Positions 47,665-63,293 of a stretch of DNA of 64,000 nt are shown here, in pieces. The DNA is taken from NCBI GenBank assembly GCA_020356065.1, contig CP070632.1:620490-684489 (forward strand). The letters run 5' to 3'. Each line of letters opens with the position of its first letter. Positions within the stretch are counted from its first letter, which is position 1. Source of the stretch: Nitrospiraceae bacterium. Lineage in GTDB: Bacteria > Nitrospirota > Thermodesulfovibrionia > UBA6902. The translations under genes and the position numbers were made by a program. The notes beneath the pieces are model-generated. The model was given only the letters and a program-made list of their open reading frames with translations, was not told the DNA's origin and made no database searches.

Positions 47665-48216
47665 TTATTTGATCCTTTTGGAAATGGCCTTAAACTCCGG
47701 TGTTCCCGCTTTTTCAAGCAGCTGAAACAGGGCGGTTTCCGTGCATGTGATAACAGCACCTGCATCACGCATGGTTTCTATAGCGGTCTTGAAGTCCTGT
47801 TTTTTTCTCGAGCAGACCGCATCACGTACAAGGTGAACAAAATATCCTTCCCTGAGAAGACTCAGACATGTCTGAAGAACACATATATGTGTTTCCATAC
47901 CCGTAATAATAATGTGTGTTTTTTTCAGCGATGCGATTTTATCCAGGAATCCTTCACCCCTGCAGCAGTCAAACGTGACTTTCTCCAGAGGTTCATACGA
48001 TGGAAGAACATCTTTGATTTCCGGAACAGTAGGTCCAAGCCCTTTTGGATACTGCTCAGTCAGTACAACAGGCACATTAATCAGTTTTGCAAGCTCGATC
48101 AGGTGGCCGCAGTTGTCATATACCTGGTCTCTTTTCTTCATCGCAGGGACCAGCTTCTCCTGAATGTCTATAACTGCAAGAGCAGCAGATTCCTTATGCA
48201 GAATAAATTTGTCCAT
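47665..48216 (-). CDS. Isochorismatase-family cysteine hydrolase (YcaC-like)
   Basis: 183 residues. The catalytic triad of the family is visible: Asp in LAVIDIQEKLVPAM (~16), Lys in PLEKVTFDC (~79) and Cys in METHICVLQTCL (~111). Relatives hydrolyse small amides or ester-like substrates; the substrate here is unknown. The start at 48216 has no Shine-Dalgarno and lies 8 bp after a large palindrome (48224-48277), which may affect its translation. acs lies upstream on the same strand. Confidence 0.87.
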   Translation of the reverse strand: MDKFILHKESAALAVIDIQEKLVPAMKKRDQVYDNCGHLIELAKLINVPVVLTEQYPKGLGPTVPEIKDVLPSYEPLEKVTFDCCRGEGFLDKIASLKKTHIIITGMETHICVLQTCLSLLREGYFVHLVRDAVCSRKKQDFKTAIETMRDAGAVITCTETALFQLLEKAGTPEFKAISKRIK

Positions 48217-48305: not shown

Positions 48306-50279
48306 TTATAATCTTTCTTTTACAAGGTTATCAACAACAGAAGGATCAGCAAGAGTCGAAGTGTCACCAAGTTCATCCACAGCTCCCTGTGCTATCTTCC
48401 TCAGGATTCGTCTCATGATCTTGCCGCTTCTGGTCTTTGGCAGACCGGGTGCAAACTGCATCTTGTCAGGAGTTGCAATAGGACCGATCTCTGTTCTGAT
48501 ATGTCCGATCAAAATTTTCTTCAGGTCATCGGACGGTTCCTTCCCTTCTTTCAGCGTGACATATACATAAATGCCCTCACCCTTAATGTCATGAGGGAAT
48601 CCAACAACAGCTGCTTCCGCAACAGCATCGTGACTGACGAGGGCTGATTCCACCTCGGCTGTGCCGAGCCTGTGTCCCGATATGTTGATGACGTCATCGA
48701 TTCTTCCCATGAGCCAGTAGTCACCATCCTTATCAATTCTTGCACCGTCTCCGGACATATAATGACCGGGGAACTGGGAGTAATAAACTTCCTTGACGCG
48801 CTTGTGCTCAGGATCGCCGTACGTACCCCGGAGCATGCCGGGCCATGGCTTTTCAATGAGCAGGTATCCGCCCTCATTAACACCGGCAGGAGAACCGTCC
48901 TGCTTTACAATCTTGGGAACAACACCGAAGAAGGGCCTGTTTGCAGAGCCCGGCTTCAGGGTCATAGCGCCCGGGAGCGGGGTAATGAGAATGCCTCCGG
49001 TCTCTGTCTGCCACCAGGTGTCCACAATCGGCAGTTTGCCCCTCCCGACGTGCGTGTGGTACCACATCCACGCTTCAGGATTAATGGGTTCACCCACTGA
49101 ACCAAGAAGTTTGAGCGAAGAGAGGTCATACTTCTTCGGCCACTCTTCTCCTGACCGCATAAGGGCCCTGATAACGGTAGGCGCGGTATAGATCTGGTTA
49201 ACCTGGTGCTTGTCGCATATGTCCCAGAAGCGCCCGGGATTCGGATAAGTGGGGACTCCCTCAAACATCAGGCTCGTTGCGCCATAGGAAAGGGGGCCGT
49301 ACACAATATAGCTGTGTCCCGTGACCCAGCCGATATCTGCCGTGCAGAACCATGTGTCTTCTTCATGGTAATCAAAAATATACTTGAATGTCTGGTTTGT
49401 ATACACCATATAGCCGCCGGTCGTGTGCAGAACGCCCTTGGGTTTTCCTGTTGACCCTGATGTGTAGAGAATGAAGAGGGGGTCTTCGGCATCCATCTGC
49501 TCCGGTTCGCATGTATTGGAGATGTCATCAGCAGCCATTTCTTCATGCCACCAGAGGTCTCGGCCCTGTTTCATTTCTGTGCCGTCAGTCCTGTTGACGA
49601 CGATCATCTTTTCAATGGTGGGGCACTCCTCAACGGCCAGGTCAGCGTTTGACTTCAGGGGAACGCTCTTGCCTCCCCTGACTCCATGATCAGCTGTAAT
49701 GACAATTTTTGCCTTGCAGTCCTGTATGCGGTCACGAAGGGCCTGGGCGCTGAATCCCCCGAAGACGATACTGTGTATGGCGCCGATACGGGCGCTGGCA
49801 AGCATTGCTATTGCGAGCTCGGGAATCATGGGAAGGTAAATGGATATTCTGTCTCCCTTTCCGACGCCGTTTTTCTTCAATACATTGGCAAAGCGGTTTA
49901 CTTCAAGGTGGAGCTGCCCATAGGTATATGTTTTGTATGATCCGTCGTCAGCCTCCCAGATAAGAGCTGCTTTATTTCTCCTGCCTTCTTCGAGATGACG
50001 GTCCAGACAGTTGACAGACGCGTTGAGCTTGCCGCCGACAAACCATTTGATTTCCGGTTTATGAAAGTCATATTCCAGGACCTTGTCCCATTTTTTATAC
50101 CATGATATGTTCTTTTCTGCTATATCACTCCAGAAACCTTCCGGGTCATCAACAGATTTTTTGTACATCTCTTCATACTGCTGAATACTGCCGATATGGG
50201 CCTTGCTGCTGAATTCCGCGGAAGGGGCAAAGGTTCTCTGTTCTGAGCTTAAGACTTGAATGGATTCTTTTTCAGACAT
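48306..50279 (-). CDS. acs: Acetyl-CoA synthetase
   Basis: Converts acetate, ATP and CoA into acetyl-CoA via acetyl-AMP, for growth on low acetate. 657 residues, full length. The P-loop is [17 protein letters not shown] and the acetate-pocket region is [17 protein letters not shown]. The hinge [20 protein letters not shown] is followed by the C-terminal acetylation site [11 protein letters not shown], whose Lys is the usual control point. ATG 50279 has AGGAGG 8 nt upstream. Sigma-54 promoter elements and paired operator boxes lie in the 333-bp upstream region shared with the DUF294 gene. Confidence 0.97.
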
Positions 50280-50341: not shown

Positions 50342-50357
50342 TGGAACATTTTTTGCA
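50342..50357 (+). promoter_or_regulatory. Candidate sigma-54 promoter towards the DUF294 gene
   Basis: TGGAAC-N5-TTGCA: GG and GC are exactly 10 bp apart and 10 of 11 consensus positions match. It is about 255 bp before the ATG at 50613. It overlaps the opposite-strand acs promoter through a shared TTGCAA palindrome. Confidence 0.5.
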
Positions 50358-50369
50358 AAAACAATGCCT
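50354..50369 (-). promoter_or_regulatory. Candidate sigma-54 promoter of acs
   Basis: On the minus strand AGGCAT-N5-TTGCA, with GG-N10-GC spacing intact, 9 of 11 consensus positions. The predicted start is near 50343, giving a ~64-nt leader to acs. Paired GTTAC-type boxes lie 110-160 bp upstream. Confidence 0.6.
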
Positions 50370-50462
50370 GTAAAGGTTATTCATATTAAGTCATGATGGT
50401 ATAAAAAACAACAGGTTAATAATATCACCAATGAACTGTTATTGCATAACAATAATGTGTAT

Positions 50463-50507
50463 GTTACAAATTGTAAAGCGTCCGGACAAAGCGCTACATA
50501 AAGTAAC
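50463..50507. promoter_or_regulatory. Paired enhancer-like boxes upstream of acs
   Basis: Box 1: GTTAC-AAATT-GTAAA (50463-50477). Box 2: GCTAC-ATAAA-GTAAC (50493-50507). They are 30 bp apart (about three helical turns) and centred roughly 127 and 157 bp upstream of the predicted acs start. The same paired boxes stand before the sigma-54 promoter at 58722. A further imperfect palindrome TGTTAT-TGC-ATAACA lies at 50437-50451. Confidence 0.55.
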
Positions 50508-50612
50508 ATTAAAATGTAATGATCAATCCATTAATGAATAGTTACCGTATCTTAAACATTTACATTCAGGTACAATGGATTGACGGGTTAAAGCATTCAG
50601 GAGTGGTCTGGC

Positions 50613-52130
50613 ATGGCGGATAAAACAGAACATCTCATAGAAGAAAATAACATTCTTCAGGAAAGCAGTGTTTTATTTAAGATCTCCTCGTTTAGTTACA
50701 GTGAAAACATTGGGCATCTCATGAACAGGGATTTGTTTCTTTGCAGCCCGGAAGACAACGTACAGTTTGTGGCAAAAGAAATGGCCGGCAGGGGGATCTC
50801 GTCTGTGATAGCTACGGACAGTGAAGGTGCACCTGTAGGAATAGTGACCGAAAGGGACATGGTCCGAAAGGTTGTTGCAGACGGTGAAGTATGTGATATA
50901 GGGAAAAAAATCTCCGAGATCATGACATCAGATCCTGTATGCCTGTCTCCTGCTGATTCCCTGTTTGATGCACTTTATGCCTTTTCCTCCAATAATATAA
51001 AGCACCTTCCAGTGGTCAGGGACAGTAAAGTGTTAGGTATTGTCTCACTGAGGCAGATCATGAAACTGCGGTACTCTGAGCCATTTGTGCTGATTGGAGA
51101 ACTTGAGCAGGCCCGGTCCCTGGCGGAATATAAAAAAATTCGGGAGGACCTGATTGACCTGGTACATGAAAAACTGTCATCACGGGTTGATCCGGTTGAT
51201 GTGGTGAATATGCTTTCGCTTATAAATTTCCATATACACAAGAAATTATTAATCAGCGTGATTGATGAACAGAAGAGCCGGCCGCCTGTTGACTACTGCT
51301 TTTTTGTCACCGGAAGTCATGGAAGAAGAGAGAACCTTCTCTTTCCCGACCAGGACTTTTGTGTGATTACAGAAGATTATGACGAAAGCAGACGGCAGGA
51401 GATCGACACATACTTTGAGAAGGTGTCACAGGAATTTTCAACTGCGCTGAATGATGTGGGATTTGACTTCTGTCCCGGTAATGTCATGGGTCAGAACCCT
51501 GAATGGCGAAAGCCGCTGTCTCAGTGGAAGCGGTTTATATGGGAGGTATTTAACAGGGAAGGTCCATACACAATAAGATACATGACCCTGATTTTTGATT
51601 CTGCTCTTCTGTATGGCAATGAGATGCTTTTTAGTCAGTATGTAGATCATGCATTCGATGGTCTTTCCAAAAACAATAATGTGCTCAGGCAGATGCATGA
51701 TGAGGAAGCAGGGCGGCATAAAGTACCCCTTGGAATTTTTCATACATTTGTCACAGAGAAAGATAAAGAACATAAAAAAGAGATCGATATGAAGAAAAGC
51801 GGTCTCATCTTTCTGATCGAATCAGCGCGCATACTTGCACTGAAACACGGGATCAGGGAGACCTCAACCCTTGCAAGGCTTAAGGCCCTGGTGAGAAAGG
51901 CAGTCATTCACAGCGATGATTCAGAATATTTTGAAAACGCCTACCGGGTCATTCTTCACCATACCCTGATGGCCCAGACCGACAACTACCTTCATAAAGG
52001 GACGGCTGATTACTATCTTAATCCGTACGAGCTTTCCGAAAGGAGCCAGGAAATGCTGAAGCAGGCATTCAAGGCCATATCAAGGCTTCAGGAACTGGTT
52101 GGAAGTGATTTCGGTGAGCTGATTCTGTGA
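50613..52130 (+). CDS. CBS-domain and DUF294 nucleotidyltransferase-like protein
   Basis: 505 residues. CBS pair at about 30-155 (YSENIGHLMNRDLFLCSPED, VGIVTERDMVRKV, LPVVRDSKVLGIVSLRQIMK), typical adenylate sensors. Then a GlnD-like nucleotidyltransferase domain with an intact site, GSHGRRENLLFPDQDF (from ~231), and the DUF294 C-terminal helical domain. DUF294 proteins accompany acs/actP in many proteobacteria; their target is not established. AGGAG lies about 9 nt before the ATG. Divergent from acs across the operator region, hence likely co-regulated. Confidence 0.88.
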   Translation: MADKTEHLIEENNILQESSVLFKISSFSYSENIGHLMNRDLFLCSPEDNVQFVAKEMAGRGISSVIATDSEGAPVGIVTERDMVRKVVADGEVCDIGKKISEIMTSDPVCLSPADSLFDALYAFSSNNIKHLPVVRDSKVLGIVSLRQIMKLRYSEPFVLIGELEQARSLAEYKKIREDLIDLVHEKLSSRVDPVDVVNMLSLINFHIHKKLLISVIDEQKSRPPVDYCFFVTGSHGRRENLLFPDQDFCVITEDYDESRRQEIDTYFEKVSQEFSTALNDVGFDFCPGNVMGQNPEWRKPLSQWKRFIWEVFNREGPYTIRYMTLIFDSALLYGNEMLFSQYVDHAFDGLSKNNNVLRQMHDEEAGRHKVPLGIFHTFVTEKDKEHKKEIDMKKSGLIFLIESARILALKHGIRETSTLARLKALVRKAVIHSDDSEYFENAYRVILHHTLMAQTDNYLHKGTADYYLNPYELSERSQEMLKQAFKAISRLQELVGSDFGELIL

Positions 52131-52172
52131 TCAGGTCAAAGATGAAGGGGAGGACACTGAAACGTCAGCCCT

Positions 52173-52883
52173 TTATCTATCTGCATGTCCCAGTCTTTTC
52201 TTCCTGTTCTGCTCATATCGAAGTTGTAATATTTCAACAAAAAGCGCAAACCCCATGGGTAAATAAATATATGCTTTTGGGATATGCTTGTGCATTCCTT
52301 CCATGAATATTGTAATGCCAATAGTGATGAGAAATGAAAGTGCGAGTATCTTAAGCGATGGTCTTTGTAAAATGAAATCCCCGACAGGTTTAGCGAATAT
52401 CAGAATTGCCAGGAATGATACGATAACCGATGTAATGATTATCCAGATTTTATCTGTTAAGCCGATTGCTGTAATAACCGAATCTACTGAAAATACGATG
52501 TCCAATAAAACGATTTGAGTAACGACGCTGAAAAAAGATTTGTAACCGGCATTATCTGAGAGGTTCAGTTCGTGCTTCAGTTCTATGGTGTTATGAATTT
52601 CTCTTACGGCCTTCCATAAAAGAAACATCCCTCCCGCAAGAAGGATCATATCCCGGACTGAAAATGAAAATACGATGTTATTTGTATAATTAGCGAGCTT
52701 TAGCAGGATTATAAGCATCAGAATTCTTGCAATGAGGGCCATTGCCAATCCGAATACTCTTGCCTTGTTTCTTTGTGACTCCGACAGTCTCTCGACAAAT
52801 ATGGAGATGACAAGTATGTTATCAACACCGAGTACCAGTTCTAGGGAAATGAGTAGTGATAATAATGCAATTGAATCAGCCAT
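52173..52883 (-). CDS. TerC-family integral membrane protein
   Basis: 236 residues, seven to eight helices. The two inverted halves show LISLELVLGVDNILVISIF and IVLLDIVFSVDSVITAIGL, whose acidic residues probably bind a cation. TerC relatives include tellurite-resistance proteins and manganese exporters that metallate secreted proteins; its role here is open. Convergent with the DUF294 gene; TPR gene upstream on the same strand. Confidence 0.9.
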   Translation of the reverse strand: MADSIALLSLLISLELVLGVDNILVISIFVERLSESQRNKARVFGLAMALIARILMLIILLKLANYTNNIVFSFSVRDMILLAGGMFLLWKAVREIHNTIELKHELNLSDNAGYKSFFSVVTQIVLLDIVFSVDSVITAIGLTDKIWIIITSVIVSFLAILIFAKPVGDFILQRPSLKILALSFLITIGITIFMEGMHKHIPKAYIYLPMGFALFVEILQLRYEQNRKKRLGHADR

Positions 52884-53007
52884 AATTAATAATAACTGAG
52901 GTCAGGGCTTTAAAGTGCTAATTTCTTTTTATTATGAAGAAGCAGATTCCGGACAATCCGGAATGCTATTACATTTAAATGGAATGGCAAAAAATGGATT
53001 ATGAATA

Positions 53008-53050
53008 ATGTATAAGAAGTAACAATCAACGTTTGTTACTTCTTATACAT
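53008..53050 (-). terminator. 18-bp perfect hairpin overlapping the TPR gene stop
   Basis: Arms 53008-53025 and 53033-53050 (ATGTATAAGAAGTAACAA and its complement) with a 7-nt loop. The upstream arm encodes the last codons and stop of the TPR gene. The sequence after it is AT-rich without a clean T-run, so it may end or stabilise the transcript. Confidence 0.5.
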
Positions 53051-53605
53051 TCTCTGCTGCTCATCCAGTTCAGGGACCCTTAACAGACGTTCTGCTTCCG
53101 GTTTCTTTAATTCAGCTTCGATATACACAGCCCTGTCAGCAATTGTGGGCGGTCGTTCAGACACATTATGCAGGAACCTCCAGAGGTATCCCGGCCCTTC
53201 GGTGAGTTCCGGGTTTAACGTAATGGCCTTTTTATAGTCAGTGACAGCTTCTTCATAATTGCCTGTCCTGTCATTCAGTATTCCCCTGTTGGCATAGGCC
53301 TGTGCAAAATCGGCATCAAGTTCTATGGCCTTATCAAAAGACGGTCTGGAATCCTCCAGCGCACCCATCTGCATCAGAGTAATTGCCCTGCCGAGATGTG
53401 CCTCTTTATAGTCCGGATATTGCGCCAATACATCATCAAACGTACGCAGTGCCTCCTCATAATTACCGTCTTCAAGGTGTTTGTTTGCAAGTCTGTAGGT
53501 GTTCTCCCCGGGGGTATTTTCAATACGGTTGTATTGAAAGAAAAAGTAGGCGAATGCAAACAGAATTGTAAGCCCTATAACAGCGGTCGTTGTATTTTTA
53601 TTCAT
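53036..53605 (-). CDS. Membrane-anchored TPR protein
   Basis: 189 residues. An N-terminal membrane helix (TAVIGLTILFAFAYFFFQY) and then at least two full TPR units (YEEALRTFDDVLAQYPDYKE, FAQAYANRGILNDRTGNYEE) plus a C-terminal helical tail. It would lie outside the inner membrane. ATG overlaps the stop of the preceding small membrane protein by 4 bp (ATGA), so the two are translated together. Function unknown; probably an assembly or binding factor linked with that small protein. Confidence 0.8.
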   Translation of the reverse strand: MNKNTTTAVIGLTILFAFAYFFFQYNRIENTPGENTYRLANKHLEDGNYEEALRTFDDVLAQYPDYKEAHLGRAITLMQMGALEDSRPSFDKAIELDADFAQAYANRGILNDRTGNYEEAVTDYKKAITLNPELTEGPGYLWRFLHNVSERPPTIADRAVYIEAELKKPEAERLLRVPELDEQQRMYKK

Positions 53606-53844
53606 CTGTAATATTTACCCATGAGTACCCCATTGAACAGGAGGGCAAACGATAAGACAATAACAGCTGTTATTGGTTTGGTCCTCTTTTCAAGGTCCTC
53701 TCTTTCTTCTATGGTCAGGTCTCTTTTAAGTTTGCGCTCTGCCTTTCTGACGCGTTGCACAAAAATCAGTTTCTTTGTCGGTTTGAATAAAATAATGGCG
53801 AGGAATATGGATGATATCCAGTACCAGGCAGTGGTTGCGTCCAA
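53602..53844 (-). CDS. Small two-helix membrane protein, unknown
   Basis: 80 residues. Helix 1 at about residues 5-22 (WYWISSIFLAIILFKPT), a basic-acidic cytoplasmic-type loop (RKAERKLKRDLTIEEREDLE) and helix 2 at about 56-75. No family is recognised; it is not clearly a DUF485 protein, though that family often accompanies ActP. TTG start supported by GGGAGG about 9 nt upstream. It lies 180 bp beyond the symporter, after a terminator, and is coupled to the TPR gene. Confidence 0.68.
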   Translation of the reverse strand: MDATTAWYWISSIFLAIILFKPTKKLIFVQRVRKAERKLKRDLTIEEREDLEKRTKPITAVIVLSFALLFNGVLMGKYYR

Positions 53845-53972
53845 CCCTGATGTCCTCCCTTCAAGCTAATGTTCCGGTTTTTGCAATTGTCAACTTTATT
53901 ATGGATACACGTGACGATAACGTCGGACTGACACTCAGCGCCAACACTTCATTATAGCGATTGATGAGAATT

Positions 53973-54006
53973 AAAAAAAGGGGGAGAGAAATCCCTCCCC
54001 CCTTTT
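53973..54006 (-). terminator. Intrinsic terminator after the SSS symporter gene
   Basis: On the minus strand GGGGGGAG pairs with CTCCCCC around an A/T loop, followed by seven T. It begins about 18 bp after the symporter stop and separates it from the small membrane protein gene. Confidence 0.88.
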
Positions 54007-54023
54007 CAGAGAATTAACCCGTA

Positions 54024-55976
54024 TTAAGGTTTATCCACGTCAAGACGTGCTTTTCGAGCGTCACCAATGTCTTCAACAAGAACTTCGATCTCTTTTTCCG
54101 GAATGGTCGACATGTTCATCTTATAGGCGAGGAACCACATCATACCGACACCAAGCGCCCACCAGATGATCTGCCATGCCCAGATCGAGGGCATACCAAA
54201 CGTCCATGTTGATGAGTCTGTGGGATTGCCGAAAAGTGTATTTCCCAATACAGCTCCGGGACCCTGTGCAAAGAGAAACCACACAAGTACGATGATCCAG
54301 GCAAGAGGGACAAGGCTCTTCTTGTCAGCAGGAATGCCTGCATGCTCCTGCAGATAATCATGGAATTTCTGCCTGTGAGCACGGGACTCTGAGTCCTGTG
54401 TGACTGCAGAGACAAGAATTGCTATGCCGAAATTGAAAATAATACCCCATCCGGCTGAGTGCAGGGTCCAGGGCCAGCGTCCCCATGCGGTTATGCCGAA
54501 CCATGTTGTTCCGATCGTTTCCGTACAGGTGACCGCAACGAGACCTGCAATGAGTCCGAGGGTTATCCCCCGCCTTGTGAGAAACGGCCAGTAGCAGATG
54601 CCGATCAGGGCGGGCCACATCTGAAACCCATAGGCAACAGCAAGACCACCCAGCAGCACGAGCGCGTCTTTTGACGTTGTGGCAACGATAAGGGCAGAAC
54701 CAACAATGATACCGACACCGATTCTTCCAAACAGTTTCTGGGTTGCGTGAGATGCTTCCTTGTTCAGGAAGTTCTTGTAAAGGTCCCGTGTTAGCATGCC
54801 GCCTGCTGTAGACATGTATGCTGCACCGGTTGACTGCATTGCTGCAAGGGCACAGACTGCTAAAAGGCCTACGAGCCATGGAGCGGTGTCAGACATGAGG
54901 TTGATCAGGGCCGGAACTATCATACCCTGCTTACCCTCCATTTCCATAATATCTTTGCCTAACTGCAGTTTGTCCACAGCAAAGCCGGCTTCCAGCATCT
55001 GTGTGTCAGCACCGATCAGGTGACCGGAAAATGCCTGCATGGCGGTAAAGAAAATCAGGATTCCGCCGATACCGAATGAAGATGCCCAAACCTGCTGGGG
55101 GGCAAAAGGTTTTGGGTTCTTGTTTGAGAAGGACCACATTGAGAATGCGGGTGAGGACTGGATTCCCATTAGGGCAAAGGCATAGGTAAGGATCATCATG
55201 CCTGTCCAGGCACCGCCCACGGCCTTTGGCCCGGATGGGACGAACTGGATTACCCCGGGAATGGCGATATAATGGCTGTATCCATCTGCTGTGAGTTTTG
55301 TATCCAAGGTTGTGAGGTTGGCAATGCCCTGGTTCAGTGCTGTCCAGCCTCCTGCGGCATTAATGCCGATGATACCTATGATAACGATACCACCGGCAAG
55401 AAGTATACACTGAACCGTGTCAACGTAGGCAACAGCACGCAGACCACCGGATGCAACATAGATAAAAACAACTGCAGACAGCATCCACATTCCTGCTTCA
55501 ACAGAGAACATACCGTTTGTCAGAACATTGAATAGGAAACCGGATGCTCTGAGCTGTACTCCGAGATACGGGATGGAGAAAACCAGGGCAACAACAACGG
55601 TCAGGACCCTGATCGCATCTGATTTAAAGTAATCATGGAACATCTCCCCCGGAGTAACATATCCGAAGCGTTTGCCGAGTATCCACTGTCTCTTCAGAAA
55701 TATAACACCTGTAAACGGGATGGTGATAGCATAAAACGACGCGTATGCATACTGAAAACCATCCCGATACAGCAGCCCCGGATGTCCCATGAATGTCCAT
55801 CCGGAGAAAGACGTTGCCGTTGCAGCAAGCACGAATACCCAGATAGGGATTGCGCGTCCTGCAATGAAATAGTCTGAAGCGGTCTTGGACATCCTTGCAC
55901 CCTTGATACCCCAGAAAATACAGTAGGCCCAGTAGGCCAGAACAAAAATGAATAACCACATTACACTTGCTTGCAC
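54024..55976 (-). CDS. Sodium:solute symporter (SSS family), acetate/monocarboxylate candidate
   Basis: 650 residues with about 13-14 membrane helices of the LeuT fold. Typical segments: FVLAATATSFSGWTFMGHPG near the substrate/sodium site, TVQCILLAGGIVIIGIIG and VCALAAMQSTGAAYMSTAGG. It is longer than ActP, with an extra C-terminal helix and a charged tail. GTG start with GGGGGT upstream. Context (acs, DUF294, exonuclease, CrbS-like kinase) points to acetate or a related short carboxylate, as in the Pseudomonas/Vibrio clusters; substrate is inferred, not shown. Confidence 0.85.
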   Translation of the reverse strand: MQASVMWLFIFVLAYWAYCIFWGIKGARMSKTASDYFIAGRAIPIWVFVLAATATSFSGWTFMGHPGLLYRDGFQYAYASFYAITIPFTGVIFLKRQWILGKRFGYVTPGEMFHDYFKSDAIRVLTVVVALVFSIPYLGVQLRASGFLFNVLTNGMFSVEAGMWMLSAVVFIYVASGGLRAVAYVDTVQCILLAGGIVIIGIIGINAAGGWTALNQGIANLTTLDTKLTADGYSHYIAIPGVIQFVPSGPKAVGGAWTGMMILTYAFALMGIQSSPAFSMWSFSNKNPKPFAPQQVWASSFGIGGILIFFTAMQAFSGHLIGADTQMLEAGFAVDKLQLGKDIMEMEGKQGMIVPALINLMSDTAPWLVGLLAVCALAAMQSTGAAYMSTAGGMLTRDLYKNFLNKEASHATQKLFGRIGVGIIVGSALIVATTSKDALVLLGGLAVAYGFQMWPALIGICYWPFLTRRGITLGLIAGLVAVTCTETIGTTWFGITAWGRWPWTLHSAGWGIIFNFGIAILVSAVTQDSESRAHRQKFHDYLQEHAGIPADKKSLVPLAWIIVLVWFLFAQGPGAVLGNTLFGNPTDSSTWTFGMPSIWAWQIIWWALGVGMMWFLAYKMNMSTIPEKEIEVLVEDIGDARKARLDVDKP

Positions 55977-56076
55977 TAAACTTACCCCCTTTCAGATCAA
56001 TGTCCAGATTGGACGTTAACAATATGGTTTTTTAAAAGAATGCTGTATCACCTCCTTTTTTGATTGATTGGCATAA

Positions 56077-56784
56077 TTATGCCCTGGCAATATCCAGTAA
56101 GTCATTTAAAGTCCTTATTCCTTCAGGCCTTAGAAAGTGTAAAAACTTCTGCAGCAGCTGGGCTGTTATAAACGCATCATTTAATGCATTATGTGCGGTG
56201 TACACAGAAATGCCATATTTCTGAGATATTGAAAAAAGGTCTGTCTTGCCTGAAGCACCTCTGTAATGCCTCTTAAACTCCCCTCCATGCTTATACAGCC
56301 AGTCATGAAGAAAATGTGTATCTACAGCCGGGTTAGTCAACCTGCCTTTATTCAGTTTTTTCAGTGATGCATTTATAAAATCAATATCGATGTTGATAAA
56401 ATGCCCCACAAGAACAGAATCAGTTATAAACTCAAGAAAGTCAGGGAGGACTGTCTCCATGCTCTCCTTTTTTTCAAGTTCTCCGGGGGTTATGCCGTGT
56501 ATTTCAACGCTCTTTCTCGACATATCTCCTTCCGGTTTGAGAAGCCTGTAAAATTCCCTGCTCACATGAATTTTAGAACCGGACATTTTTATCGCGCCGA
56601 TAGATACAATAAAATCTTTCTTAGGGTCCAGCCCGCTCAGTTCAGTATCAAATACAACAAACGGGATCTCACTTAAAGGTGTCTCTTTTCTGACAGAACC
56701 TGACCATTTTTTTGCATCACTGCCGCCCTTTTCACATTTTGTAAGACCGGTAACTTTATGCATACAAGTTGAAATAATTCCCAT
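56077..56784 (-). CDS. DEDDh 3'-5' exonuclease (DnaQ-like)
   Basis: About 235 residues. DEDDh residues are visible: DTE in VVFDTELSGLDPKKDF (~43), Asp in VGHFINIDIDFI and the HNALNDAFITA His-Asp pair near the C-terminus. The ~35-residue N-terminal extension is basic and Cys-containing. ATG 56784 overlaps the DUF294 stop (TGATG), so the start one codon upstream (GTG 56787) is less likely. Such exonucleases recur in acs/actP-DUF294 clusters; whether the substrate is RNA, DNA or a nucleotide signal is unknown. Confidence 0.9.
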   Translation of the reverse strand: MGIISTCMHKVTGLTKCEKGGSDAKKWSGSVRKETPLSEIPFVVFDTELSGLDPKKDFIVSIGAIKMSGSKIHVSREFYRLLKPEGDMSRKSVEIHGITPGELEKKESMETVLPDFLEFITDSVLVGHFINIDIDFINASLKKLNKGRLTNPAVDTHFLHDWLYKHGGEFKRHYRGASGKTDLFSISQKYGISVYTAHNALNDAFITAQLLQKFLHFLRPEGIRTLNDLLDIARA

Positions 56785-58685
56785 CACACGCCTGCGTTCT
56801 CTTTTCTGAATGAACGTTCCGCAGCATTTTGCAGAGGTTCAATTATCTGAAAAGTTTCTTTCAATGTTCTTTTTTCCAGCAATGAAAGTTTTTCCGGCTC
56901 GATACAATTGTCTATTTTCTGGTGCAGTTCTTTTTTCTTGAGCTGGGACTGCATAAGAATATGGAGCAGGAATTCAAGGGCTGCGACAGAATTGTTCATA
57001 AGCTCTTGGTTTATAAACTCTCTTTTTGCAAGTATGCCCAGTCTCTCGATCGTGGAAGTCTCCTTGATGTTATGGGCAATGGCCATCGCACGAACCGATG
57101 CAACGATATGAGATGATCCCTTTTCCTTTGCATCGAGTTTTTCCATTTTTTCACCCTGATTATCAACAACAAATTTTTTAAAGAAGCCGACAGGAGATTT
57201 CTGTTTTGCTTTTTGACCCATGAGATGAGCCCGGTATTTTTCATTTTCTCGTATCTGTTTGTATACCCGGTCCTTCAGTGATTCTACAATGGATGAATCC
57301 CCGTATATTGTTCTGGCATCCAGCATCTTTATTACTGTATCGATGTGGGCACTGTTTTCAGAGCGGAATGCCTTGATAATCTTTGATTCCCACTCCGAAA
57401 TATCACCGTAGATGGGAACTACGCTGCCGAGAGGTTCCGTGTCAAACTCGGGAAGACCGCATTTCCTGATCATCTCCTGAAGATTGTCTGTCAACTGCCG
57501 GCAGAACTCCTCGATATCCCTTTTATTACAGAATGTCTTTTCATCATCATAAGCAAAGGCACAATGCAGGACAGTCTTGAACGTTTCTTCCCTTCTCCCT
57601 TCACTGCCGTAAACAAAGAACGCAAAGGGGCAGTGGGGACTTCCCATTTTGCCGATGCACAGTTCGATTATCTTGATAATGAGCCTGTCATGAAGCTCGG
57701 TTATTATTCGCAGAATGTAACTTGCCCTCACTCCTTCCTGCAGAAGGATAGATATGGTCTGGTCGATCCTGTCACGGATAGGCGCAAGGTCTTCAGCACT
57801 GTTCTGCCGGTCAATATTTTTTAAAATAGAGAGCGGGGAAATACCCTGAAGGAGCATGAAGTCGTGGTTTGTAACTACTCCTGTGATATTTTGACCATCA
57901 GTAACAAGCAGGTGGTGTATATTGAGCCTGATCATGGTTGAAAGTGCGTCAAAACAGGTACTTCCAGAGTCAATGGTTACCAGTTTGGAACTCATTATCT
58001 CTCTGGCGGGAGCTGATGCGTCAATGCCTGATGCAACCACCCTGTCCCTGAGGTCTGTATCCGTGATAATTCCCGCCGGAAGTTCCTGTTCTCCAGTAAG
58101 AACGAGAGAGCTGATCTTGTTCTGTGACATGATTGCTGCCGCATCTTTTATGGATGTTGTCTGCGGGGCTTTTATGACATCACACGAGGCGATGTTCATC
58201 ACAGGGGTGGTATAAAGAAGTTTTTCTCCCTCTTTAAACAGGAGATTCTTATTGCGCATTTCCCGGTACGTCTTGTCCATGTAATTTCTGAAAAAGGATT
58301 TCATGAAATATTCACCAAACAGGGGCTCTTTTTTTACGATGTTCAAAACGGTTTCCCGGGGGATCTGGTAGCAGAGCGTGTCTTCAATCGCCTGAATGTT
58401 TGTCCTGGTTTTGTCTCCACTTATGAGTGAAAGGTAGCCGAATGAGTCACCTTCACTTTTGTAATCCAGCACAATATCATCATCATTGGAAAGATATACT
58501 TTTACGCCGCCTTTTTTGATGACCCTGAGGCAATCGCTTGCCGGGCCGTCCTGGGTAAGAATAAGCGAGTTCTTTGGTGAAAACTCAAGTGACAGGTTTT
58601 CCACAATATCCCTGAGGGTTGATTCGTCCAGAAACTGGAACGGCGGTATATCTCTGAAAAAATTTATACTGTCTTCAGTGATCAT
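56784..58685 (-). CDS. cNMP-binding, CBS and DUF294 protein with altered nucleotidyltransferase site
   Basis: 633 residues. Order: cyclic-nucleotide-binding-like domain (~8-125), CBS pair (~165-285, with SKLVTIDSGSTCFDALSTMI), DUF294 nucleotidyltransferase-like domain (~300-430) and the DUF294 C-terminal domain. At the expected catalytic segment the sequence is GSEGRREETFKTVLHCAFAY: the GS and E are kept but the D-Q-D is V-L-H. It is therefore probably catalytically dead, unlike the 50613 paralogue. First gene of a coupled DUF294-exonuclease-symporter operon, with a consensus sigma-54 promoter 37 bp upstream. Confidence 0.87.
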   Translation of the reverse strand: MITEDSINFFRDIPPFQFLDESTLRDIVENLSLEFSPKNSLILTQDGPASDCLRVIKKGGVKVYLSNDDDIVLDYKSEGDSFGYLSLISGDKTRTNIQAIEDTLCYQIPRETVLNIVKKEPLFGEYFMKSFFRNYMDKTYREMRNKNLLFKEGEKLLYTTPVMNIASCDVIKAPQTTSIKDAAAIMSQNKISSLVLTGEQELPAGIITDTDLRDRVVASGIDASAPAREIMSSKLVTIDSGSTCFDALSTMIRLNIHHLLVTDGQNITGVVTNHDFMLLQGISPLSILKNIDRQNSAEDLAPIRDRIDQTISILLQEGVRASYILRIITELHDRLIIKIIELCIGKMGSPHCPFAFFVYGSEGRREETFKTVLHCAFAYDDEKTFCNKRDIEEFCRQLTDNLQEMIRKCGLPEFDTEPLGSVVPIYGDISEWESKIIKAFRSENSAHIDTVIKMLDARTIYGDSSIVESLKDRVYKQIRENEKYRAHLMGQKAKQKSPVGFFKKFVVDNQGEKMEKLDAKEKGSSHIVASVRAMAIAHNIKETSTIERLGILAKREFINQELMNNSVAALEFLLHILMQSQLKKKELHQKIDNCIEPEKLSLLEKRTLKETFQIIEPLQNAAERSFRKENAGV

Positions 58686-58721
58686 ATTTTAGGATATAAG
58701 AATAATAACTAATCATTTGAA

Positions 58722-58737
58722 AGCAAATAAAGTGCCA
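58722..58737 (-). promoter_or_regulatory. Consensus sigma-54 promoter of the DUF294-exonuclease-symporter operon
   Basis: On the minus strand TGGCAC-N5-TTGCT matches the sigma-54 -24/-12 consensus at all 11 positions, with GG-N10-GC spacing. The predicted start is near 58711, 26 nt before the ATG at 58685. Confidence 0.82.
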
Positions 58738-58807
58738 CTGTATATGTGATATTAACTTAATAAAATCAGAGGGTTATATACAAAAAAAAAGGCCGGAAAT
58801 GAGACAT

Positions 58808-58853
58808 GTTACGAAAAGTAACTCAGTATTTATTTCAGGTTACTATAAGTAAT
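58808..58853. promoter_or_regulatory. Paired enhancer-like boxes (GTTAC-N5-GTAAY)
   Basis: GTTAC-GAAAA-GTAAC (58808-58822) and GTTAC-TATAA-GTAAT (58839-58853), 31 bp apart, centred about 104 and 135 bp upstream of the sigma-54 transcription start. They lie between the regulator gene (ends 58882) and the promoter. Similar boxes with 30-bp spacing stand upstream of acs. Confidence 0.7.
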
Positions 58854-58881: not shown

Positions 58882-60228
58882 TCAGGGCTTTTCAACGCCC
58901 CATTTCTTTCTTTTTTCCCACAATGATTTTCTCGTAATTCCAAGCATGGTGGCGAGCTGCTGCTCATTATACGCTGTCTGATATTCCATGATAAAGGCCT
59001 TTGTGTAATCTTCAATGGAAAGATGAGCATCAAGAGAATTTTTTACAAACGAATCACCGGTTTTCATTGACAGCGGGAGATGGTCAGGTTTTATCGTGTC
59101 TGTATCAGCAATGAGAATGGCCCTTTCAATGACATTCTGCAGCTCTCTTACATTACCCGGCCATCTGCTTTTTGTCATCATTGCCATTGCTTGATCAGAC
59201 ATATCAGTCACTTTTTTCTGAAATTCGACAGCATACAGTTTAAGAAAGTGTCTGGCCAGGATGGCTATATCAGTTTTTCTTTCCCTCAAAGAAGGGAGTG
59301 TGAGAGATATCGTATTGACCCGGTAGTAAAGGTCTTCACGGAAGGTGTTGTTTCTGACCGCTGACTCCAGGTCCTTGTTGGTAGCAACAATGAGGCGCAC
59401 GTCTATCTTCAGGGCCTTATTGCTGCCGACCGGTCTGATCATCTGGTCTTCAAGGACCCGCAGCAGTTTGATCTGAAAGTAGGGTGTTATGTCACCGATT
59501 TCATCAAGAAAAATCGTACCTCCGTCCGCCTCCTCAAACAGTCCTTTCTTGAATGCTATCGCCCCGGTAAAGGCCCCCTTTACATGACCGAAGAGCTCAC
59601 TTTCGAGGAGGTTTTCCGGAATGACAGAACAGTTGATCGGTATGAACGGCATGTCTTTTCGTGCACTGTTATTGTGGATGACCCGTGCAAACAGTTCCTT
59701 GCCGGTACCTGTTTCTCCAATAAGCAGTACATTGCTTTTAGTATCAGCAATTTTTTTGGCTTCATCTATGATTGACAGCAGCAGGGGACTTTCACCAATG
59801 ATACTGCTGAAGTCGTATGTCTTTCCGATTTCCCGTTTGAGGAGAATATTTTCAATTTTAAGCCGCTTCTGCGTCAGCGCATTTTTTACGACCTGCTTTA
59901 TCTCTTCATGCATTATGGGCTTCATTATATAATCATATGCACCTGCCCTGAGTGCCTTTACTGCTGTTTCAAGAGAGGCATAAGCGGTCATGACAATAAA
60001 TATCTGGTCAGGAAGCTCTTCCTTGACTTCAGTCAGCATCTCTATGCCGTCTTTTCCGGGAAGAATAATGTCTGATATGATCACATCGTAGATATACTTG
60101 TCCATGAGTTGAAGTCCATTTTCAACAGAATCAGCTGTGCTGACATTGTATCCCTCACGGGTAAACATCCGCTTCAGTGAATCACGCAGTGTCTCTTCAT
60201 CTTCAACTATTAATAATTTTGTCGCCAT
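58882..60228 (-). CDS. NtrC-family sigma-54 response regulator
   Basis: 448 residues. The receiver domain has the acidic pair VEDEE, phospho-Asp in VIISDIILPGKDG (~54) and Lys in IMKPI. The AAA+ domain has Walker A GETGTGKELFARVIH, the sigma-54-contacting GAFTGA loop, Walker B FEEADGGTIFLDE and arginine fingers in REDLYYRVN. The Fis-type helix-turn-helix is at the end (EQQLATMLGITRKSLWEKRK). It follows the SSS-kinase by 113 bp and precedes the GTTAC boxes and the sigma-54 promoter, so it is the likely activator of both promoters. Confidence 0.94.
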   Translation of the reverse strand: MATKLLIVEDEETLRDSLKRMFTREGYNVSTADSVENGLQLMDKYIYDVIISDIILPGKDGIEMLTEVKEELPDQIFIVMTAYASLETAVKALRAGAYDYIMKPIMHEEIKQVVKNALTQKRLKIENILLKREIGKTYDFSSIIGESPLLLSIIDEAKKIADTKSNVLLIGETGTGKELFARVIHNNSARKDMPFIPINCSVIPENLLESELFGHVKGAFTGAIAFKKGLFEEADGGTIFLDEIGDITPYFQIKLLRVLEDQMIRPVGSNKALKIDVRLIVATNKDLESAVRNNTFREDLYYRVNTISLTLPSLRERKTDIAILARHFLKLYAVEFQKKVTDMSDQAMAMMTKSRWPGNVRELQNVIERAILIADTDTIKPDHLPLSMKTGDSFVKNSLDAHLSIEDYTKAFIMEYQTAYNEQQLATMLGITRKSLWEKRKKWGVEKP

Positions 60229-60341: not shown

Positions 60342-63293
60342 TTACGGCGTAACCGGAATTTTGATAATAAATCTGGTGCCTCCGTTATGAGAGTCATCAA
60401 TTTCAATTGTTCCGCCGTGGTCTTTAATAATGCTGTAGCAGATGCTTAATCCCAGACCTGTGCCCTTGACCGGTCCCTTGGTTGTGAAAAAAGGGTCGAA
60501 TATTTTATCCATGTTTTCATGACCTATACCGGTTCCTGTGTCTGAAAAAACCGTCTCGACGTAACCATTATTCTGCTTGATCGAAATGGAAAGCCGGCCC
60601 CCGTCAGGCATTGCGTCTCTCGAATTAAGCAGAAAGTTAAGAAAGACCTGCTGCATCTGATCAGAGTCTATCTTAAGGTCAGGCGCCTCATTGATGTCCG
60701 TGACGATTTCGATTTTTTTGAAGTTCTTGTCATACTTGACCAGGTTTAGCGTTTTTTCCAGTATGTCCTTAAGGTTGGACCTGATTTTCTGCCGGGGATA
60801 GAGTCTCGCAAAGTCCCCCAGGTTTCTCACAATTCTTGCGATCCGGTCAATATGCGTATTGATCGTGTTCAGAGAGTCTGAAACAAAAGGGGTGAGGTTT
60901 TCCGAGTACAGTTCCTGAACCAGAGATGAAATGGATGCCAGCGGATTTCCTATTTCATGGGAAACCCCTGCAGCCAGCCTCCCGATACCGGCATGCTTGG
61001 TTGTTCTGAAGAGTTCCTCCTCGATTTTTTTGTTTTCAGTAATGTCCTCCATAACAAGGACATATCCTTTCTGCTTTCCGGTGAGTTTGCTCAAATGCAC
61101 TTTTAAAACCATCTGGGGCATATTTTCGAGGTTTCGTCTGCATATGGTTTCCCCTTCCTTTATCAGGGGTTCAAAAAGGTCTGACTCAAAACAGGTAAGC
61201 AGATAGTTTGCCTGAATACTGAGGGCATCATCCTTTCGTATGTCAGTGATTTTTTCCATCGCATGATTCCAGTACCTGACATGTAGTGTTTCATCAAGGG
61301 TAGCGATACCAAGGGGAATACTTTCAATAATGTTCTCACTGAACTCCTTTAACAGCGCGAGCTGCCTGTTTTTGTCAGCGAGTTCCTGTCTTGATAAACG
61401 TAAGCTGCTGGAAATCTTCTGTACTGAATCAGATATCTCAGCCTTTTCTTCTTTAGTCAGAACAGTCCTGTTCTGGAATATAAGGCTGCTGATTGAAGGA
61501 CCCAGCGTGCCTGAGAGCAGAATTTCTGCTTCTCCTCTGAGTTTTTGAAGCCATTCCACAGTCACTGTCCCGGAGGTCAATCCGTTCCTCTTCAGAAACT
61601 CATTAACGTACTGGATGGCCTCGCTCTGGCCGATGTAAGCCGACAGAATTTTCGTAATTTCATCAAGACTCCTGGGCGTGCTCGAAATCCCCAGCTGGAT
61701 CGGCGAATAAGATTCTACAAAGATTATGGTCTGCTTTGTTTCATAATCTGACTGTTTGGTAAAAAGCGACACAGTGATATAGAGAAACAGGTTCAGCAGA
61801 AGCCCCCAGAACAATGAATGACTCCATTTGTCCAGCCCCTTAAGTCCGAAAAGAGCGGTGGGATTGAGAAATGTAGAACTGAATACTGTAGCAAGAATAC
61901 CTTCTCCGGAAATGATGCCTGCCTTTAACAGTGCGGGGATCATCAGCGTATAAGTCCATACCGAAAAACCCGCTATAATGCCGGCAATGGCGCCTTTTTT
62001 GTTCCCTCCTTTCCAGTACATTCCGAGCAGAAAAGCAGGGGCAAAAATGGTAACTGCTTCAAATGATTTCAAACCTATATTGACAAGGCTGTAAAACTCA
62101 CCAATAGAGACGGCAAAAATATAACCAAGAAATACCAGTCCCACGATAACTATTCGTCTCGTGTTAAGAATCATAACGTAAAAACCCTTCATTGCATTAA
62201 GGCCCCATACCGCAGGCATGACAAAACTGTTCATAACCATGGTGCTGAGTGCCAGTGATTCTACGATGATCATTGCGGTTGCTGCTGAGAAGCCCCCGAT
62301 AAAAGCCAGCAAAGCCAACATCGGCGCTCCCTGATTCAACGGGATACTCAGAACAAAATAATCAGCCATTTCTTTTGGCTCCCCAAGGAGAAGACCACCG
62401 TACGCGATGGGAAGAACAAAAATATTGATAAGAATCAGATACAGGGGAAACAGCCACATCGCCTTTTTTATATGGTCATAGGAGGAGTTCTCAACAACAG
62501 AGACCTGGAACTGCCTGGGAAGGAACAGTATGGCCATCATGGACAGGAACGTAAGCGATGTCCATTCCAGAAAACTGACATGCGAATCATTGCCGAGCGT
62601 CATATGAGACGTAAACTGAGAGTTTTTTATCTGATCAAAAATATCCGTGAAACCGTTAAACAGACCATATGTGACACAAATACCTACTGACAGGAAGGCT
62701 ATCAGTTTAATTGCTGATTCAAAGGCTATGGCAAATACCAGACCGCTGTGTCTTTCAGACACATCAGTCTTTCTTGCTCCGAAAAATATTGCGAATACTC
62801 CCAGAATTATTGCAATGACCCACCCCATAAAATGACTGGCTTCAGGTTTCCCGGCCATAATCGAAAAGGTGGTCATGATGGCCTTAAGCTGAAGTCCAAG
62901 ATAAGGGGTGATCCCTACCACAGCAACAAGGGTAACAAGGGCGGAGAGAAACAGGGAATTACCATAACGCAATGCAATAAAATCAGAAATCGTTGTAATT
63001 CTGTTTTCCTTGCAGATATACACTATTTTTCTCAACACGATCCACCAGAGAACAGCCATGAGGGTGGGGCCGATATAAATGGTGAGAAAGCTTAGTCCAG
63101 AGTTTGCTGCTTTTCCCACACTGCCGTAAAAAGTCCATGATGTGCAATACACAGCCAAAGATAAAGAGTATATATATGGATTTGATACGAGTTTACTTCC
63201 TGCACGTTCTTTTTTTTCTGCATAATGAGCAATCAAAAAAAGGATTGCCAGATAGATAAAAATAATTGAGAATAATACTGGCGCAGAAAACAC
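60342..63293 (-). CDS. CrbS-like SSS-domain sensor histidine kinase
   Basis: 983 residues. Residues 1 to ~500 form an SSS-type symporter domain of about 13 helices (NPYIYSLSLAVYCTSWTFYG, QGAPMLALLAFIGGFSAATA). A linker resembling the STAC domain follows (~520-620), then a PAS domain (ESIPLGIATLDETLHVRYWN). HisKA carries the phospho-His in GVSHEIGNPLASISSL, and the HATPase domain has FLLNSRDAMPDGGRL and the G-boxes DTGTGIGHEN and GTGLGLSI. The architecture is that of CrbS/MxtR, which controls acs in Vibrio and Pseudomonas. GTG start immediately after the stop of the small upstream gene. Partner: the downstream NtrC-type regulator rather than a LuxR-type CrbR. Confidence 0.93.
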   Translation of the reverse strand: MFSAPVLFSIIFIYLAILFLIAHYAEKKERAGSKLVSNPYIYSLSLAVYCTSWTFYGSVGKAANSGLSFLTIYIGPTLMAVLWWIVLRKIVYICKENRITTISDFIALRYGNSLFLSALVTLVAVVGITPYLGLQLKAIMTTFSIMAGKPEASHFMGWVIAIILGVFAIFFGARKTDVSERHSGLVFAIAFESAIKLIAFLSVGICVTYGLFNGFTDIFDQIKNSQFTSHMTLGNDSHVSFLEWTSLTFLSMMAILFLPRQFQVSVVENSSYDHIKKAMWLFPLYLILINIFVLPIAYGGLLLGEPKEMADYFVLSIPLNQGAPMLALLAFIGGFSAATAMIIVESLALSTMVMNSFVMPAVWGLNAMKGFYVMILNTRRIVIVGLVFLGYIFAVSIGEFYSLVNIGLKSFEAVTIFAPAFLLGMYWKGGNKKGAIAGIIAGFSVWTYTLMIPALLKAGIISGEGILATVFSSTFLNPTALFGLKGLDKWSHSLFWGLLLNLFLYITVSLFTKQSDYETKQTIIFVESYSPIQLGISSTPRSLDEITKILSAYIGQSEAIQYVNEFLKRNGLTSGTVTVEWLQKLRGEAEILLSGTLGPSISSLIFQNRTVLTKEEKAEISDSVQKISSSLRLSRQELADKNRQLALLKEFSENIIESIPLGIATLDETLHVRYWNHAMEKITDIRKDDALSIQANYLLTCFESDLFEPLIKEGETICRRNLENMPQMVLKVHLSKLTGKQKGYVLVMEDITENKKIEEELFRTTKHAGIGRLAAGVSHEIGNPLASISSLVQELYSENLTPFVSDSLNTINTHIDRIARIVRNLGDFARLYPRQKIRSNLKDILEKTLNLVKYDKNFKKIEIVTDINEAPDLKIDSDQMQQVFLNFLLNSRDAMPDGGRLSISIKQNNGYVETVFSDTGTGIGHENMDKIFDPFFTTKGPVKGTGLGLSICYSIIKDHGGTIEIDDSHNGGTRFIIKIPVTP

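Follow-up and report, generated by a model that had tools for sequence, protein, structure and literature searches.

The 64,000-bp stretch of the Nitrospiraceae bacterium genome analysed here (contig CP070632.1, positions 620,490 to 684,489; hereafter the window, whose own positions are used throughout) carries paired 15-bp inverted repeats, or boxes, of the form GTTAC-N5-GTAAC upstream of two sigma-54 promoters. One promoter precedes acs and the other precedes an operon that begins with a gene referred to as CNB; both are read leftward, on the minus strand. From right to left, the order is kinase, regulator, CNB box pair, CNB, exonuclease, symporter, a divergent CBS/DUF294 gene, acs box pair and acs, with the following genes:

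48306-50279, minus strand: acs, acetate--CoA ligase (TIGR02188, 993 bits against a cut-off of 725)
50613-52130, divergent from acs: CBS/DUF294 gene (Pfam/NCBIfam)
54024-55976, minus strand: sodium:solute symporter, SSF family (Pfam; no NCBIfam model above cut-off)
56077-56787, minus strand: DnaQ-like (DEDDh) exonuclease (Pfam RNase_T)
56784-58685, minus strand: CNB, first gene of the operon, cNMP-binding/CBS/DUF294 nucleotidyltransferase-like (Pfam)
58882-60228, minus strand: NtrC-type response regulator with REC, Sigma54_activat (231 bits) and Fis-type HTH domains (Pfam)
60342-63293, minus strand: sensor histidine kinase with an N-terminal SLC5/SSF transporter domain, SSF-PAS-HisKA-HATPase (Pfam)

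The gene content, acs on one side and the symporter operon on the other, places the two promoters in one plausible pathway of acetate uptake and activation. The symporter is probably a carboxylate transporter, its substrate being set by no family model. By Pfam, an SLC5-domain kinase without a receiver domain adjoins the NtrC-type regulator; no NCBIfam equivalog scored above cut-off for the regulator, the kinase or the symporter. The host genome also contains rpoN (Sigma54_DBD match) and three HU/IHF-family genes. The promoter features are:

50354-50369, minus strand: acs sigma-54 -24/-12 element, AGGCATTGTTTTTGCA
50406-50418, minus strand: putative IHF-like block in the acs enhancer-promoter interval, AAACAACAGGTTA, one mismatch to WATCAANNNNTTR
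50463-50477, minus strand: acs proximal box, GTTACAAATTGTAAA on the plus strand, one mismatch
50493-50507, minus strand: acs distal box, GCTACATAAAGTAAC on the plus strand, one mismatch, 30 bp from the proximal box
58722-58737, minus strand: CNB-operon sigma-54 -24/-12 element, TGGCACTTTATTTGCT (operon start at 58685)
58764-58776, minus strand: putative IHF-like block of the CNB promoter, AATCAGAGGGTTA, one mismatch
58808-58822, minus strand: CNB proximal box, GTTACGAAAAGTAAC, perfect, 31 bp from the distal box
58839-58853, minus strand: CNB distal box, GTTACTATAAGTAAT on the plus strand, one mismatch

With mismatches counted against GTTAC-N5-GTAAC, these four are the only boxes in the 64 kb at one mismatch or fewer, and sites scoring at least 10 of 12 against the sigma-54 consensus number only six. 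The first-pass annotation had placed the boxes at 50463 and 50493 (30 bp apart) and at 58808 and 58839 (31 bp apart), and all four were found there. It had further described the half-sites as identical and the position as the same at both promoters. The core is indeed shared, but only one box is perfect and the other three deviate at one base each. Both pairs lie upstream of sigma-54 elements, but the centre of the proximal box is 79 bp from the -24 GG at the CNB promoter and 102 bp from it at the acs promoter; because these distances differ by about two helical turns, the likeness in position is only approximate. Taking the relatives described below together with the window, the arms of a box are 10 bp (one turn) apart, the boxes of a pair are 30-32 bp (three turns) apart, and the boxes lie 79-134 bp upstream of the -24 element.

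The 3.17-Mb host genome was scanned for the motif, with the pattern read backwards as control. Pairs with a start-to-start spacing of 23-38 bp matched at two places, the acs and CNB promoters, and the reversed pattern matched nowhere, which agrees with the earlier expectation of a few pairs, each before a sigma-54 promoter, and with the claim that the arrangement exceeds chance. A looser half-site pair pattern added no matches (reversed control, 7 and 3). Single boxes with at most one mismatch occurred 64 times, fewer than in the reversed control (146), so that a single box is uninformative alone, and it was rejected as a regulon marker. The other three perfect boxes (L002-L004) are probably not targets because no good sigma-54 element lies within 250 bp of them, the best being weak 9-of-12 sites at L002 and L004. 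The frequency of single boxes, and the fact that the motif was picked after viewing the data, leave room for the view that the pairs are chance matches chosen by eye in AT-rich intergenic DNA. Against this stand the uniqueness of the pairs in the genome and their footprint in independent genomes, which already contradicts it.

The nearest named relatives are Thermodesulfovibrionia/Nitrospirota metagenome-assembled genomes (MAGs). Of the 37 genomes of the family, 18 have an orthologue of the kinase, and of the 47 genomes of the order, 18 have one of the regulator; the recognition segment LGITRKSLWEKRK[KR]W is invariant across the regulators. Close regulator orthologues, at about 67% identity or more, number 11 and come from eight genera of two families; one of them (G004) is split over two contigs and was counted. 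Directly after the regulator gene, all 11 have a pair at 30-32 bp followed by TGGCAY-N5-TTTGC, and both CNB boxes are kept in each of these orthologous promoters. The consensus is RTTAC-N5-GTARC for the distal box and GYTAC-N5-GTWAC for the proximal box, or about RYTAC-N5-GTWRC for all boxes over the relatives. Arm positions in the 11 promoters carry 1.0-2.0 bits and the outer flanks 0.0-1.1 bits, while the spacer bases between the boxes are not conserved. An AACYC-YTGATTT block between box and promoter is also kept in most CNB promoters, and in most cases it fits an IHF site with no or one mismatch. In one relative (G006; L046 5536-8414 and 10101-11875) the kinase and CNB genes are each frame-split in two, possibly through sequencing errors. 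For each of the 11 CNB-type promoters, none of 1000 shuffles reached the observed match; overall, 16 of 17 promoters were unmatched by any shuffle, the exception being the acs promoter of L073, where the distal box is decayed and six of 1000 shuffles equalled the observed match. Such persistence in eight genera of two families, despite diverged spacers, makes the chance explanation hardly credible.

Conservation at acs is less even. Five further acs promoters show the 30-bp arrangement. The proximal box is kept in all of them (L067, L069, L071, L072 and L073 in the alignment). The distal box is also good in L067 and L069, but in L071-L073 it has decayed beside a strong proximal box. RGGCAT-N6-TTGC is kept in six acs promoters, and the alignment shows an AAC-N4-6-TTT block conserved among acs promoters. 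The weaker acs boxes in some relatives, together with the differing box-to-promoter distance (79 against 102 bp), would suit an explanation in which the CNB pair serves autoregulation or the CNB operon only, while the acs pair is independent of it and answers to another regulator, the likeness being partly coincidental. We consider this very improbable, since arms, three-turn spacing, sigma-54 class and a similar IHF-like block are common to both promoters, and the acs pair is confined to genomes that have the system. The congener G005, which has an intact acs pair, was initially a candidate for regulator absence; this absence is only apparent, because a run of Ns interrupts its kinase gene and the regulator region is therefore not assembled. 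The 16 acs genes in genomes without the kinase and regulator have no box within 450 bp.

The boxes follow the regulator gene across the order. In a scan of the 47 genomes for pairs at 31 bp with at most two mismatches, nine genomes matched, each directly after the regulator gene; all nine are among the 11 carriers of a close orthologue, and none of the other 36 genomes matched. The hypergeometric chance of this pattern is about 4e-8 with kinship ignored. In the two unmatched carriers (G008 and G009) the spacing is 30 and 32 bp. Direct observation covers the sequences themselves, how well they are conserved, and their occurrence alongside the regulator and sigma-54 elements. In one genome, G017 (L055 1480-7800), the box pair and sigma-54 element still follow the regulator, but the operon behind them is a different one. 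It begins with an MFS metabolite:H+ symporter and continues with a phosphoesterase-like gene, a protein kinase-Usp fusion, acs and an isochorismatase-like gene; there the promoter stays with the regulator and acs, and the transporter has been exchanged.

Similar sites may serve different enhancer-binding proteins of one genome, and here the adjacent regulator is linked to the boxes by sequence comparison. The boxes might instead bind another dimeric regulator or enhancer-binding protein that also controls acetate genes, with the NtrC-type regulator a mere neighbour. We regard this as unlikely, because the pair tracks the NtrC-type regulator gene across the 47 genomes and stays beside it where the downstream operon has been exchanged. 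The box pairs are thus highly likely to be upstream activating sequences of the NtrC-type regulator at 58882-60228, with the kinase at 60342-63293 as its partner; acs and the CNB operon are predicted to be transcribed under its control from their sigma-54 promoters. The earlier proposal that two sigma-54 promoters of one pathway share a regulatory pair is thereby supported by the genome scan, by the footprint in relatives, by co-distribution with the regulator and by absence where the regulator is absent.

We infer regulator binding, DNA bending, activation and the signal as follows. The SLC5-domain kinase would sense a carboxylate, probably acetate. Each 15-bp box, with its arms one turn apart, would be bound by one regulator dimer through the Fis-type HTH, and two boxes 30-32 bp apart would place two dimers on one face of the DNA, so that the phosphorylated regulator could build its AAA+ ring. 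A bend at the IHF-like site, probably introduced by a bending protein, would bring the ring to sigma-54 RNA polymerase at the -24/-12 element, and ring assembly and DNA bending would open the sigma-54 complex. The predicted outcome is joint transcription of acs and the CNB-exonuclease-symporter operon, so that acetate or a similar carboxylate would be taken up and activated.

Several observations weigh against this mechanism. Acetate as the probable signal is named from the target genes only, and the IHF-like sites are imperfect and, by the criterion used, missing in some promoters. Two regulators (L108 and L110) have no box within 700 bp, and no pair was found at the L041 locus. In genera g14 and g15, whose regulators are about 60% identical, acs has no box of its own. 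Boxes remain in these genera at the CNB promoter right after a second regulator, which is full-length; in most cases there are three, followed by GGGCAY...TTGC. In L058, L059 and L062, acs lies downstream of the CNB promoter in the same direction, and may therefore be read from it. The regulator adjoining the kinase in g14 and g15 has either lost its HTH (355 aa, REC and AAA+ only; L058 5394-6461) or is a bare receiver (137 aa; L061 13202-13615); the second, full-length regulator lies elsewhere, in L058 beside the boxes.

Two further features were noted around acs. A second sigma-54-like element, TGGAACATTTTTTGCA, at 50342-50357 on the plus strand overlaps the acs -24/-12 element on the minus strand and is directed at the boxes and the divergent CBS gene; it is present in the congener L069 and absent from L071-L073. 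As for a sigma-54 promoter of the divergent CBS gene at 50613, none was found between the boxes and the gene. Directly 3' of acs lies an isochorismatase-like hydrolase gene (47665-48216, minus strand), whose place is kept in many relatives.

In NtrC-type enhancers such as that of glnA, two dimer sites, each an inverted repeat, are separated by about three helical turns and lie about 100-150 bp upstream of a sigma-54 promoter. The window shares with them the paired inverted-repeat sites three turns apart upstream of a sigma-54 promoter, and differs in half-site sequence and in pathway. GG-N10-GC lies downstream of the boxes at both promoters and at all orthologous ones examined, the dyad sites are in helical phase, and the genome encodes an AAA+ sigma-54-interacting regulator and rpoN. 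When the regulator was compared with a plasmid collection, only AtoC and other regulators were found, below 44% identity.

The system resembles CbrA/CbrB in combining an SLC5-domain kinase lacking a receiver with a sigma-54 enhancer-binding response regulator (PMC6296734, PMC8871633). Furthermore, the half-site core GTTAC/GTAAC recalls the TGTTAC and GTAACA of CbrB, and an IHF site between enhancer and GG-N10-GC promoter has its counterpart here in an IHF-like block only. However, the CbrB subsites, TGTTAC-N12-14-GTAACA-N15-19-GTAACA, are described as non-palindromic (PMC6296734, PMC8871633), whereas here each box is an inverted repeat with an N5 spacer and the boxes are paired at 30-32 bp, a geometry different from that of CbrB. 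Moreover, CbrAB regulates carbon use globally and is described as confined to pseudomonads and Azotobacter (PMC8871633), in contrast to two promoters of one pathway in Nitrospirota. No STAC model was among the Pfam hits of the kinase, and no other search for STAC was made.

The proposed targets resemble those of CrbS/CrbR (MxtR/ErdR), in which an SLC5-domain kinase controls acs and an acetate/solute symporter gene in Vibrio and Pseudomonas, the CrbSR targets being acs and actP (PMC5715377). Here acs and the symporter operon share boxes, with the symporter's substrate set by no family model. Unlike the present regulator, which is NtrC-type and acts with sigma-54 promoters by prediction, CrbR is LuxR-type and works through another imperfect palindrome, the ACTU motif; CrbS, a hybrid kinase, carries a receiver domain (PMC5715377), which the window kinase lacks. 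By its sequence features, we class the system as an NtrC-type sigma-54 enhancer, not as CbrAB, because the site geometry differs, and not as CrbSR, because the regulator class differs. By prediction it combines CbrAB-like wiring with CrbSR-like targets. In a Desulfarculaceae MAG (L048 10001-23111), a similar acetate set of kinase, symporter, CNB, acs and exonuclease has a HisKA_3 kinase and a LuxR-type regulator, which suggests that regulator class has been exchanged between lineages. Within the open-access literature, we found nothing on point for sigma-54 control of acs or for SLC5 kinases that belong to Nitrospirota or are linked to an NtrC-type regulator.

With moderate confidence, we propose that this is an acetate switch of Nitrospirota run by an SLC5 kinase and a sigma-54 regulator instead of the LuxR-type regulator of CrbSR, a CbrAB-like pair outside pseudomonads that uses palindromic, paired GTTAC half-sites. 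The class of mechanism is ordinary; the proposed wiring is new. If true, an SLC5-kinase/sigma-54 pair would exist outside the pseudomonads, beyond the range stated for CbrAB (PMC8871633). For the mostly uncultured Nitrospirota, the boxes would define a precise cis-regulatory code of acetate use and would assign target genes to a sensor kinase. They also suggest that SLC5-kinase systems built around one acetate gene set have exchanged LuxR-type and sigma-54-type response regulators.

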